Part shown: in pieces, positions 19,476 through 25,266 of the stretch
How positions within the stretch are numbered: position 1 is the first letter of the stretch
Layout of the letters: the number at the start of each line of letters is the position of its first letter
The notes under the pieces: model-generated
Database searches by the model: none
Told to the model about the DNA's origin: nothing
What the model saw: only the letters and a program-made list of their open reading frames with translations
Made by a program: the position numbers and the translations under genes
Origin: a virus
Length of the DNA: 25,527 nucleotides
Reading direction: 5' to 3' (one strand)
Virus record (IMG/VR): IMGVR_UViG_3300025133_000549
Location: 1 to 25,527 of that record

Positions 19476-21329
19476 ATGGATATATCCCAAGAAATCCTAT
19501 CACAAATTACAACTTATAACAAATATGCCAAATATTTACCTTCTATTCAACGAAGAGAAACTTGGGAAGAAATTGTTTTTAGAAATAAAAAAATGAACTC
19601 TGACAATTTTCCTAAATTACAGGAAAAATTAGATTGGGCTTATCAATATGTTTATGAAAAAAAGACTCTTCCATCTATGAGGAGTCTCCAATTCGCTGGA
19701 AAACCAATTGAAATAAATAATGCACGAATATTTAATTGTGCCTATCTACCAATTAATGATTGGAGAGCATTTAATGAAGTAATGTTTTTATTACTTTCAG
19801 GATGTGGGGTAGGATACTCTGTTCAAAATCATCATATAGATAGTTTACCTGAAATTCGTATCCCAACCAAAACTAGAAGATTTTTAGTAGGAGACAGTAT
19901 TGAAGGATGGGCTGATGCTGTTAAAGTATTGATGAAATCTTATTTTGGGATTTCCAATTCAAGGCCCAATTTTGATTTTAGAGATATTAGACCTAAGGGA
20001 GCAGAACTCATTACAGTAGGAGGTAAAGCACCAGGACCAGAACCTTTGAAAGAATGTTTATTCCAAATCCAAAAAATATTAGATAGAAAAGAAAATGGAG
20101 ATCAATTAACCCCATTGGAAGTAAATGATATAATTTGCCATATTGCAGATGCTGTATTATCCGGAGGTATTAGACGAGCAGCTTTAATTTGTTTGTTTGA
20201 TTTGGATGATGAAGAAATGTTAACGTGTAAGTATGGGAATTGGTGGGAATTAAATCCACAAAGGGGAAGAGCAAATAATTCTGCAGTTGCCATTAGATCA
20301 AAAATTACTAAATCAAGATTCTTTGAATTGTGGGGGAAGGTTTGTGGGAGTGGAACAGGTGATCCTGCTGTATATTTCTCAAATGATAAAGATTGGGGTT
20401 GTAATCCCTGTTGTGAAATTGGATTAAAACCCTTCCAATTCTGTAATTTAACAGAAGTAAATGTTTCAAACATTACATCACAAGAGGATCTAAATGAAAG
20501 AGTAAAAGCAGCATCCTTTTTAGGAACATTACAGGCAAGTTATACTAATTTCCATTACTTAAGAGAAATATGGAAAAGAACTACTGAAAAAGATGCACTT
20601 ATTGGTGTGGGAATGACAGGGATAGGAAGTGGAACTATATTAAATTATAATCTTAAAGAAGCAGCTAAGATTGCAGTTGAAATGAATATTTGGACTGCCG
20701 AACAAATAGGAATTAACCCTGCATCACGTGTAACAACTGTTAAACCTTCAGGTACCAGTTCACTTGTATTAGGCACATCTTCAGGTATTCATGCTTGGCA
20801 TAATGATTATTATATTCGAAGAATGAGAATTGGTAAAAATGAACCATTATATCAATACCTATCTATTTTCCATCCTGAATTAGTTGAAGATGATTTCTTC
20901 AAACCCCAAATCCAAGCAATCATATCTGTACCCCAAAAATCACCTTCAGGAGCAATTTACAGAAGTGAAAGTGTAATGGATTTACTTGAAAGAACCAATA
21001 AATTTAATATAGAATGGGTTAAAGCAGGCCATGTAAAAGGGGCTAATACTAATAATGTTTCAACAACAGTATCAGTTAAACCTAATGAATGGGAAGAAGT
21101 TGGTAATTGGATGTGGGAGAATAAAGAAAATTTTAATGGGTTAGCAGTATTTCCATATGATAATGGAACCCATGTACAAGCACCATTTGAGGATATAACT
21201 GAAGAAAAATATGAAGAAATGGTTTCCCATTTACATGCTATTGATTTAACTAAAGTGGTGGAAGAAGGTGATAATACTTCGTTAAGAGAAGAACTTGCAT
21301 GTTTTGGTTCAAGTTGTACTATTACTTGA
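19476..21329 (+). CDS. nrdJ: Class II (B12-dependent) ribonucleoside-triphosphate reductase
   Basis: This 617-aa enzyme makes deoxyribonucleotides using adenosylcobalamin. NPCCEIGL gives Asn310, Cys312 and Glu314, the thiyl-radical triad of monomeric class II reductase (N406/C408/E410 in Lactobacillus leichmannii). Cys323 lies 11 residues after Cys312, the spacing of C419 in that enzyme, and Cys88 (IFNCAYLPI) fits C119. The C-terminal pair Cys609 and Cys614 would be the reducing shuttle. It is shorter than the 739-aa model enzyme. No second subunit or activase is seen. It lies after the replication block with a 64-nt AT-rich gap and probably shares its timing. Confidence 0.92.
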   Translation: MDISQEILSQITTYNKYAKYLPSIQRRETWEEIVFRNKKMNSDNFPKLQEKLDWAYQYVYEKKTLPSMRSLQFAGKPIEINNARIFNCAYLPINDWRAFNEVMFLLLSGCGVGYSVQNHHIDSLPEIRIPTKTRRFLVGDSIEGWADAVKVLMKSYFGISNSRPNFDFRDIRPKGAELITVGGKAPGPEPLKECLFQIQKILDRKENGDQLTPLEVNDIICHIADAVLSGGIRRAALICLFDLDDEEMLTCKYGNWWELNPQRGRANNSAVAIRSKITKSRFFELWGKVCGSGTGDPAVYFSNDKDWGCNPCCEIGLKPFQFCNLTEVNVSNITSQEDLNERVKAASFLGTLQASYTNFHYLREIWKRTTEKDALIGVGMTGIGSGTILNYNLKEAAKIAVEMNIWTAEQIGINPASRVTTVKPSGTSSLVLGTSSGIHAWHNDYYIRRMRIGKNEPLYQYLSIFHPELVEDDFFKPQIQAIISVPQKSPSGAIYRSESVMDLLERTNKFNIEWVKAGHVKGANTNNVSTTVSVKPNEWEEVGNWMWENKENFNGLAVFPYDNGTHVQAPFEDITEEKYEEMVSHLHAIDLTKVVEEGDNTSLREELACFGSSCTIT

Positions 21330-23182: not shown

Positions 23183-23214
23183 TTGGTTTAGTCAATAAGG
23201 GTTCGTATCTTTAC
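23183..23214 (+). promoter_or_regulatory. Bacteroidetes-type promoter of the dpdA-queC cluster
   Basis: TTGGTTTAG (23183-23191) and TATCTTTAC (23206-23214) are separated by 14 nt, as in the promoters before 2906 and 13295. The -7 region GGGTTCGTATCTTTACA and the start AAATAAGTTTTATG nearly copy the one before the polymerase. It gives dpdA a short A/T-rich leader. Confidence 0.8.
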
Positions 23215-23228
23215 ATCAAATAAGTTTT

Positions 23229-24011
23229 ATGAAAATAAGTCATGAAGTGCCTCTAAGTTTATTAGAGAAGAGTCGTGAATTCAACGATTATGATTTTTGT
23301 TTACCTCACTTAATGGATGAAAATCCTACCTACCGAGATTTCTTTTTAGAATCTAAAAGATTAGGACGATATATTGTTATGGATAACTCCTTACATGAAT
23401 TAGGAGAAGCATATGATCATAAACGTCTTCTATATTGGGTAAATGAATTACTCCCAAATGAATTTGTTGTTCCTGATGTATGGGCTGATTTTAATCAATC
23501 CCTAAGAAATGCAAAACAATGGATTGCAATGGATTTTCCTGAAGAAGTAACAAGAATGGCTGTAGTACAAGCAGGTTCTATGGGGCAAGCAGCTAGTTGT
23601 GCCCAAATCTACCAAGATATGGGTTATCAAAAAATTGCATTTACCTATGGTTTACCCTATTATGAAAGGGAATATGCAACAAATACTCAAGATACGGCAA
23701 GAGTATTTGGTAGAGTAGCAACTATCCAAGAATGTTATCATTCCGGAGTATTAACTGATACTAATCGAGTACATTTATTAGGTTGTTCAATGCCCTTTGA
23801 ATTTGGTTTATATTCAAATTTCAAATGTATTGAAAGTATAGATACTTCAAACCCCGTTATGGCAACTTTAGATGGAACTAAATATTCAATTGAAGGTACT
23901 CACCCAAAACCCAAATCAAATATGAATGAACATTTTGAAAAGCCAATAGATGATATTAACTTGGAATTATTAGAACATAACGTAAATATTTTTAAAAAAA
24001 TAACAGAATGA
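23229..24011 (+). CDS. dpdA: DpdA-like DNA 7-deazaguanine transglycosylase (TGT superfamily)
   Basis: This 260-aa protein shows the tRNA-guanine transglycosylase barrel in reduced form. MDNSLHELGE puts Asp52 where TGT has its base-binding Asp; FVVPDVWAD follows; AVVQAGSMGQ matches the TGT 'VQGG' loop; VHLLGCSMPF matches the substrate loop; and SIDTSNPV puts Asp205 at the nucleophile position. The TGT zinc site (CxCxxC) is absent. In phages such proteins (DpdA) exchange guanine in DNA for a 7-deazaguanine such as preQ0. A queC-like gene follows two genes downstream. It overlaps the next gene by 4 nt (ATGA). DNA, not tRNA, as substrate is inferred from phage context and shortness. Confidence 0.8.
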   Translation: MKISHEVPLSLLEKSREFNDYDFCLPHLMDENPTYRDFFLESKRLGRYIVMDNSLHELGEAYDHKRLLYWVNELLPNEFVVPDVWADFNQSLRNAKQWIAMDFPEEVTRMAVVQAGSMGQAASCAQIYQDMGYQKIAFTYGLPYYEREYATNTQDTARVFGRVATIQECYHSGVLTDTNRVHLLGCSMPFEFGLYSNFKCIESIDTSNPVMATLDGTKYSIEGTHPKPKSNMNEHFEKPIDDINLELLEHNVNIFKKITE

Positions 24012-24241
24012 GTGATTTTAAACAATACAGAAGAAAAGAAACAGCAGAACTAGCTGTAATTGATATTACACAAGATACGGCTACAACATTGGAATATGCT
24101 GGGGTGTCAATATCACAAGCAGATTTAGACAACGGTTCTCCTAAAGAAGGGGACATGCTTGCTAGAAATCCTAAAAATCACAATGATAAGTGGTTGGTAG
24201 CTAAAGCATATTTTGAAGATAATTTTGAGCCTGTAATATGA
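24008..24241 (+). CDS. Small conserved phage protein
   Basis: This 77-aa protein begins MSDFKQYRRKETAEL and contains SPKEGDMLARNPKNHNDKWL. This second block is conserved in a family of small phage and bacterial proteins that I recognise by sight but for which I know no function. It overlaps the dpdA end by 4 nt, so it is coupled to it, and the queC-like gene follows after 80 nt. It may bind DNA or a nucleoside intermediate, but nothing in the sequence shows this. Confidence 0.75.
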   Translation: MSDFKQYRRKETAELAVIDITQDTATTLEYAGVSISQADLDNGSPKEGDMLARNPKNHNDKWLVAKAYFEDNFEPVI

Positions 24242-24274
24242 ACTTATATAGTAAAAATGTTTTAATTATAAAAA

Positions 24275-24297
24275 CCTTCAACCCTTATGGTGGGAGG
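24275..24297 (+). other. Imperfect hairpin in queC leader
   Basis: CCTTCAACC and GGTGGGAGG can pair over 9 positions with one A-G mismatch and one T-G pair around a CTTAT loop. No T run follows, so it is not an intrinsic terminator. It lies 24 nt before the queC-like ATG, in the only leader of the window with a clear Shine-Dalgarno-like AAAGGAA. It might be a regulatory RNA structure or a processing site. Confidence 0.35.
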
Positions 24298-24321
24298 ATA
24301 ATTTAAAAAAAGGAAATAAAT

Positions 24322-25266
24322 ATGGAAAAAATTAAACAATGTGTTTTATCACTTAGTGGGGGATTAGACTCAAGTACTTTGCTCCTCCATCTTTTGGAGA
24401 AAGGTTATCAATGTGTAGCACTTTCATTTGATTATGGTCAGAAACATAAGGTGGAATTGGAAAGAGCAACTGAATTGGTTGAATATATAAATAATACTCT
24501 TCCAGTTAGAGGTACAGGTTGGGGAAGTTCATTTGTTAAACATCAAATCATTACCTTAGATGGATTATCTGAGTTATTAGTAAGTGGGTTAATGAGGAAT
24601 GATTCAATGGAATTAAAGAAAGGACATTATGCCCATGAAAATGCTTTAACATCCGTAGTTCCCAATCGAAATGCTATATTTGCATCAATTGTATATGCTG
24701 TGGCCTTATCAAAAGTAAAAGAAAATGGAAATCCTTGTAAAATTGCATTAGGTACTCATATGGGGGATTTTGATAATAATAAACAAGAAGGAATATATCC
24801 TGATTGTTCTGAAGAATTTCGAACAGCTTTAGAACATGCTTTTAAAATTGGGAATTGGGATTCAGATAAAGTAGATTATTATGCCCCTTATAATATAACA
24901 GATAAAACCGGGGTTTTGAGGGATGGAATTAAACAATGTGAAAATTTAGGATTAAATTATAAAGAGATTTATTTAAGAACCAACACAAGTTATGATCCTA
25001 TTAAAGTAGAATATTCTGGAAGTACAATGGAAGAAATGAGAAATGGAGGAGTTGAGATTGAGTGGTATAGTGATTATAAAAGTGGTTCAAGTATCGAAAG
25101 AATTGAATCTTTTATTAAATTAGGTTTGGAAGATCCTTTACAATATGCTGAAGAAGATGGTACATTAGTTTCTTGGGAATTTGTTAAAAAATATGTAGAA
25201 AAAATTTGTCAAAAATGGGAAAATAATAAATTAACAATTCAAGAATATTTAAATAAAACAGCATAA
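24322..25266 (+). CDS. queC: QueC-like 7-cyano-7-deazaguanine synthase without zinc cysteines
   Basis: This 314-aa protein is a QueC-type ATP pyrophosphatase: the P-loop is LSGGLDSST (11-19), followed by LSFDYGQKHKVELERA, VPNRNAIFASI and YPDCSEEFRTALEHAF, all typical. QueC converts carboxy-deazaguanine to preQ0, the base inserted by DpdA. The C-terminal zinc site is altered: TWSCY reads TNTSY (Ser223), and CGxCxxCxxR reads DYKSGSSIER (251-260), so all four cysteines are replaced by Ser or Asp while the flanking IESFxKLGLEDPLQY fits normally. An insert of about 20 residues lies between the two elements, and the protein is about 80 aa longer than usual. Either the zinc is dispensable here or the reaction differs. 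The leader has AAAGGAAATAAAT before ATG. Confidence 0.88.
   Translation: MEKIKQCVLSLSGGLDSSTLLLHLLEKGYQCVALSFDYGQKHKVELERATELVEYINNTLPVRGTGWGSSFVKHQIITLDGLSELLVSGLMRNDSMELKKGHYAHENALTSVVPNRNAIFASIVYAVALSKVKENGNPCKIALGTHMGDFDNNKQEGIYPDCSEEFRTALEHAFKIGNWDSDKVDYYAPYNITDKTGVLRDGIKQCENLGLNYKEIYLRTNTSYDPIKVEYSGSTMEEMRNGGVEIEWYSDYKSGSSIERIESFIKLGLEDPLQYAEEDGTLVSWEFVKKYVEKICQKWENNKLTIQEYLNKTA

Follow-up and report, generated by a model that had tools for sequence, protein, structure and literature searches.

RESULTS

Genes at the right end of the window

The window (the whole 25.5-kb stretch of DNA analyzed here) is a phage fragment with genes for tail, replication, and nucleotide metabolism. At its right end lie, in order, ORFs of 260, 77, and 314 aa, and the contig ends 261 bases past the last of these, the QueC-like ORF. 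The features are as follows.

23229..24011, + strand: putative DpdA-like DNA guanine transglycosylase, 260 aa (ORF list, A2 alignment, AlphaFold2 model, PDB fold matches)
24008..24241, + strand: 77-aa ORF, its start overlapping the DpdA stop (ATGA); function unassigned
24322..25266, + strand: QueC-like ATP pyrophosphatase, zinc-less, 314 aa (PF06508, phrog_1550, 2pg3 profile match, fold)
24355..24372, + strand: SGGxDS pyrophosphate-binding loop, QueC residues 12-17 (alignment)
24988..25092, + strand: former zinc-ribbon region, QueC residues 223-257; S223, D251, S254, and S257 replace four cysteines, Y224 is kept, and an insert lies between residues 224 and 250

The 77-aa ORF had no family matches in profile searches and no tblastn relatives in the fetched loci. 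An earlier note on this DNA had placed the cluster under a host-type promoter; the plus strand of the window holds 13 similarly loose matches, among them the sequence in question, TTG-N18-TATCTTT at 23183, which is not distinctive. Elsewhere in the window, three small, unrelated ORFs (at 2906, 21538, and 21821) have a common N-terminal peptide, MKKS[EQ]LR.[LI]I[RK]EE[IL], a looser form of which occurs 14 times in seven IMG/VR loci. Positions 19476-21329 encode a ribonucleotide reductase with a match to the B12-dependent (class II) insertion domain; the Flavobacterium phage immuto, discussed below, is instead annotated with alpha and beta subunits.

A QueC-like protein that has lost its zinc site

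The 314-aa protein passes the PF06508 gathering score of 22 with ease (105.1 bits; 4.8e-30) and matches phrog_1550 (7e-29), and the profile of its family matches a solved QueC, 2pg3, at 1.7e-22. Its score against the NCBIfam equivalog TIGR00364 is 96.9 bits, under the cut-off of 150.3. The AlphaFold2 model (pLDDT, 86.6) matches Cap9, QatC, and QueC with Z scores of 17 to 18. In an alignment with E. coli (L283) and phage QueCs, S223, D251, S254, and S257 occupy the columns of the four zinc cysteines of the E. coli protein. The C(x)8CxxCxxC zinc motif of canonical QueC is absent from the window QueC, which is therefore not to be filed as canonical QueC.

According to a recent family survey, the canonical QueC signature consists of SGGxDS, YxQxHxxE, VPxRN, YPDC, K165, and Y189; zinc is called required, and Y189 of E. 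coli QueC, which lies inside the zinc region, was found by mutation to be needed (PMC13329287). The window QueC has all four motifs together with the equivalents of K165 and Y189 (the latter being Y224), and the metal ligands alone are gone. The same holds for its homologues, which retain SGGxDS (109/112), VPxRN (112/112), YPDC (109/112), K195 (112/112), and Y224 (111/112). Compared with canonical QueC (PF06508 cluster 1, including E. coli QueC and B. subtilis 3BL5), the window protein shares the fold, the four motifs, the tyrosine beside the first ligand, the conserved lysine, and, judging by its relatives, linkage to queD and queE. It differs in having S-D-S-S in place of four cysteines, in its longer loops and C-terminal helix (it is about 90 residues longer), and in falling into a separate, strongly supported clade.

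The substitution is not peculiar to this phage. Among 269 aligned homologues, the ligand columns read S-D-S-S in 189 (nearly all from phages) and C-C-C-C in 60, with the remainder mostly other zinc-less sets; these searches were seeded by zinc-less sequences, and the counts do not estimate how common the zinc-less form is. Median dN/dS was 0.12 over 1,019 pairs of QueC homologues, which argues that selection preserves the zinc-less form. The earlier note had identified the same four substitutions, the flanking ERIESF..LGLEDP..Y stretch, and the intact P-loop and substrate motifs, and had judged that the loss of zinc was no accident; the alignment, the motifs kept in more than 100 homologues, and the conserved S-D-S-S under purifying selection bear it out on each of these points. 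The insert that it described between the two halves of the site is indeed present in the window QueC but is optional and does not define the lineage: only nine residues lie between the first two ligand positions in 67 of the 189 S-D-S-S homologues, compared with seven in the majority of four-cysteine QueCs.

The 260-aa protein has a TGT-type barrel

The 260-aa protein is a member of phrog_19058 and has no Pfam match over the cut-off. Its matches to DpdA profiles are weak, namely, 1.2e-4 for PADLOC and 0.021 for NCBIfam NF041059, where its 13.7 bits lie below the cut-off of 200. The PADLOC DpdA profile matches 10 of the 23 members of its family and scores above TGT. When the family profile was run against the PDB, the matches were again weak, mostly to designed TIM barrels, and the fold was settled by structure search. 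The best PDB fold matches of the AlphaFold2 model (pLDDT, 95.3) are arcTGT (Z, 18.1) and the bacterial DpdA 7ui4 (Z, 17.8), indicating a TGT-type barrel, and Foldseek returned TGT at 1.8e-7. In the family alignment (A2), D52, D83, G185, and D205 are invariant and Q114 is nearly so; these residues fit the TGT active site, in which they would correspond to the Asp nucleophile, the general Asp, and the Gln and Gly of the base pocket. Thus, the TGT-like character proposed in the earlier note finds support both in a predicted fold of the TGT/DpdA type and in catalytic residues that are those expected of it. Like 7ui4 and TGT, the protein has the barrel fold (Z of about 17 to 18 over 230 residues) and the catalytic Asp/Gln pattern, but it is shorter by about 100 residues or more. 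The TGT C-terminal zinc site (CxCxxC...H) was not found, there being no conserved cysteine past D205 in A2, and the archaeosine-specific C-terminal domain is missing as well.

The relatives recovered in our searches are from phages. Campylobacter phage CP220 gp056 and related short phage proteins are of about the same length as the 260-aa protein and have the same conserved residues; gp056 is 35% identical to it over 232 residues. CP220 differs in that its QueC has four cysteines and in that all of the G in its DNA is replaced by dADG (PMC8306585, citing Crippen 2019). This full replacement favors DNA as the probable target of the 260-aa protein, a target assigned by association with CP220 and immuto. 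Several homologues are annotated as hypothetical, including CP220 gp056 (L037:6001-6777), phiST gp042 (L039:11953-12732), and a protein of MA9V-3 (L040:9980-10774).

Pathway genes in related phages

FolE, QueD, and QueE are absent from the window because the contig ends just past QueC. The earlier note had suggested that they could be elsewhere in the phage or come from the host. The former is supported, since related phages mostly have them a few kilobases or less downstream of QueC, past the point where the contig stops (median starts, where downstream, at 0.6 kb for QueD, 1.4 kb for QueE, and 3.1 kb for FolE). Of the S-D-S-S phage loci, 39 have 8 kb of sequence on either side; among these, QueE was found in 37 and QueD in 34, and 27 have DpdA, QueD, QueE, and FolE all together. 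The reading of the cluster as one for 7-deazaguanine DNA modification is well supported.

Exactly one QueC was found in each of 13 large phage contigs of the lineage and in the isolate immuto, and all of the large phage genomes searched that hold any QueC have it in single copy (15/15). Flavobacterium phage immuto 3-5A (MW353176) resembles the window in its single, zinc-less QueC (48% identical) and in its DpdA (31.5% identity), and it is annotated with QueD, QueE, FolE, and DpdA; unlike the window, it also has QueF and a formyltransferase, and its annotation is silent on the loss of zinc. QueF occurs in 4 of the 14 large phage records of the lineage, a formyltransferase occurs in the same four, and all four have an S-D-S-S QueC. 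The substrate of QueF is preQ0, and it follows that the zinc-less QueC makes preQ0 in these phages unless the host supplies it. The co-occurrence of QueF with a PurN-like formyltransferase (L002:34995-36968; also G019, G021, and G023) suggests a formylated preQ1 base in the DNA. Weak PF14489 matches in relatives were considered as QueF candidates and rejected; one that was traced (G001) is FolE itself.

Zinc elsewhere in the pathway

In most of these phages, QueD has also lost zinc ligands: the histidines H16, H31, and H33 are replaced by F, H, and Y, while C27, D70, H71, and E110 are kept (e.g., L002:29964-30422), and HGY replaces HGH in 143 of 156 aligned QueDs. Such QueDs likewise occur in phi38:2, phiST, MA9V-3, Facilibium, and Thiotrichales 19S9-11. 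In phi38:2 the altered QueD accompanies a four-cysteine QueC, and in phiST it is present although no QueC was found; the QueD loss is therefore an event separate from the loss of zinc in QueC. FolE, on the other hand, keeps its ligands, with the full C/H/C pattern in 79 of 97 sequences and the last cysteine in all 97. In four phages (G001, G017, G021, and G025), the QueD that accompanies the zinc-less QueC keeps all three histidines. We therefore rejected zinc saving across the whole pathway as an explanation, since FolE retains its ligands and the losses in QueC and QueD are uncoupled.

Zinc-less QueC in archaea and bacteria

The cellular search, which sampled one genome per species, found zinc-less QueC on contigs from marine Group II-type archaea (Poseidonia and others), Candidatus Neomarinimicrobiota, and a Pirellulaceae genome, as well as in two gammaproteobacteria, Facilibium subflavum and Thiotrichales 19S9-11 (a 499-kb contig). 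In each of 13 cellular genomes searched, it is the sole strong PF06508 match, and 10 of these genomes have TGT; a 14th (G040) has a QueC with four cysteines. In the archaeal order of G028, presumably Poseidoniales, most of 79 genomes have one strong PF06508 match and all 68 QueC sequences read are zinc-less, as against 30 of 30 with four cysteines in the same phylum outside this order. Archaeal ligand sets include SSSD, SSTD, SHTD, and SATD; variation at the second position is too great for a metal site to be conserved there. QueD adjoins QueC in these marine archaea, including a genome with a 2.06-Mb contig. Judging by gene content, where an archaeon has TGT and only one QueC, this QueC is very probably the one that serves for preQ0.

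In the marine Group II-type archaea, the zinc-less QueC often carries, as a C-terminal fusion, an MsrB-like (methionine sulfoxide reductase) domain with its own CxxC pairs (L222:7977-9167, L352, and about 30 of the 68 archaeal sequences). In Thiotrichales 19S9-11 and F. subflavum (L208 and L210), the only QueC is a zinc-less one of the phage type, beside a phage-type zinc-less QueD; these genes may have arrived by phage-to-bacterium transfer or belong to a prophage.

Evolution of the zinc loss

In a maximum-likelihood QueC tree built with the zinc columns left out, the phage S-D-S-S sequences and those of the two gammaproteobacteria form one clade (99/89), within which phage L026 has S-H-T-D. 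The sister clade (100/96) contains the archaea, Neomarinimicrobiota, Pirellulaceae, and phage L129, plus two four-cysteine sequences (L027 and L218). Together, the two clades are set apart from canonical QueC at 100/100. The possibility that zinc was lost only once was considered and rejected: a tree with all zinc-less sequences in one clade fails the AU test (p, 0.017), implying that the ligands were lost repeatedly or were lost and then regained.

DISCUSSION

The observations made directly here concern sequence, fold, gene content, conservation, and phylogeny; from them, we infer the enzyme activity, the DNA target, and the final base. In the reading that we consider probable, the zinc-less QueC is an ordinary CDG-to-preQ0 (or ADG) synthase that works without zinc and feeds a DNA guanine transglycosylase. 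GTP would be converted by FolE, QueD, and QueE to 7-carboxy-7-deazaguanine (CDG), and the zinc-less QueC, of a lineage in which the zinc ribbon has given way to a zinc-free form of this region, would then convert CDG to ADG or preQ0 through activation by ATP, attack by ammonia, and conversion of the amide to the nitrile. The DpdA-like transglycosylase would exchange guanine in the phage DNA for the QueC product, and the modified DNA would no longer be recognized by host nucleases. The final base would be dPreQ0 or dADG for the window phage and of the aminomethyl or formylaminomethyl type for its QueF-bearing relatives. The main argument for normal chemistry is that the zinc-less enzyme is the only QueC in archaea that have TGT. 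Against it, the host might supply the preQ0 used by QueF. CP220 combines a four-cysteine QueC with dADG rather than dPreQ0, and the exact product therefore cannot be read from QueC alone.

The earlier note had raised the idea that loss of zinc marks a different base or a different target. This is not what the data favor, given that the catalytic residues are kept and that the zinc-less protein is the sole QueC in QueF-bearing phages and TGT-bearing archaea, with QueD adjacent. On such a view, the enzyme stops at the amide (giving dADG) or joins CDG to another amine, such as a small amine or, as in Cap9 and QatC, a protein N terminus, yielding a new base or a modified protein. The QueC fold can ligate CDG to protein, as Cap9 and QatC do (PMC13279940, PMC13329287), and these two are among the best structural matches of the window QueC (Z, 17.9); the related DpdA of CP220 goes with 100% dADG, and members of the window lineage that lack QueF could end the pathway at any step. 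However, Cap9 (of type IV CBASS) and QatC both keep the zinc cysteines, so that zinc loss is not their signature, and the QueC substrate motifs that QatC has lost are retained here. Neither a CD-NTase nor a QatB-like gene was recognized among the window ORFs, which look like phage genes for structure, replication, and nucleotides, with the small ORFs covered in part. Since the genomes with QueF need preQ0, and the zinc-less QueC is the only one in the TGT-bearing archaea and bacteria, we regard a different product as unlikely.

We think it more improbable still that the 260-aa protein acts on tRNA, in the manner of queuine or archaeosine enzymes, and that the cluster serves to raise tRNA modification in the host instead of altering phage DNA. 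arcTGT is admittedly its top structural match, practically tied with DpdA (Z, 18.1 versus 17.8), and the DpdA profile matches are weak. Set against this are the missing C-terminal zinc site and archaeosine-specific domain, the phage origin of its relatives, the higher score of the PADLOC DpdA profile over TGT, and the complete replacement of G in the genome of its CP220 relative. Least probable of all is that this QueC is a degenerate or regulatory remnant, with a host QueC supplying preQ0. Loss of the zinc ligands would fit such a view, and some phages are known to carry DpdA but none of the pathway genes (PMC6884629, PMC8306585); however, strong purifying selection, intact catalytic residues in more than 100 homologues, linkage to QueD, QueE, and FolE, and the status of the protein as sole QueC in cellular genomes all speak heavily against it.

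With an ordinary QueC reaction as the preferred reading, one may ask how far the pathway has dispensed with zinc. A tentative proposal, to which we would give somewhat less than an even chance, is that the dedicated 7-deazaguanine steps run zinc free, with a QueC that lacks the ribbon, a QueD that lacks two of its three zinc histidines, and a transglycosylase that lacks the TGT zinc site. If this is true, QueC can do without zinc, and QueD can reach carboxytetrahydropterin by a metal-free route. The Zur literature has examples of zinc-dependent enzymes whose paralogues are zinc free, although the QueD paralogues described there keep their zinc ligands (PMC2770081).

No description of the zinc-less QueC variant was found in the literature searched, which covered the directly relevant phage 7-deazaguanine work incompletely, and none of the QueCs described in the 2026 family survey lacks zinc while keeping the catalytic signature intact (PMC13329287). 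The window QueC, its activity being deduced as set out above, is best described as a zinc-free variant within a known kind of phage DNA-modification pathway. For phage biology, it offers a sequence handle for finding many more phages with modified DNA; annotation that relies on the cysteine motif will miss these proteins. For the family, zinc is taken to be one of the features that define QueC, and a zinc-less lineage that retains the catalytic signature runs counter to this. The lineage spans phages, all sampled genomes read from one marine archaeal order, and scattered bacteria, and it includes transitional sequences; it thereby makes testable whether the zinc of QueC is only structural. That the zinc-free form is the only QueC read in this archaeal order suggests that QueC can produce the base without zinc.
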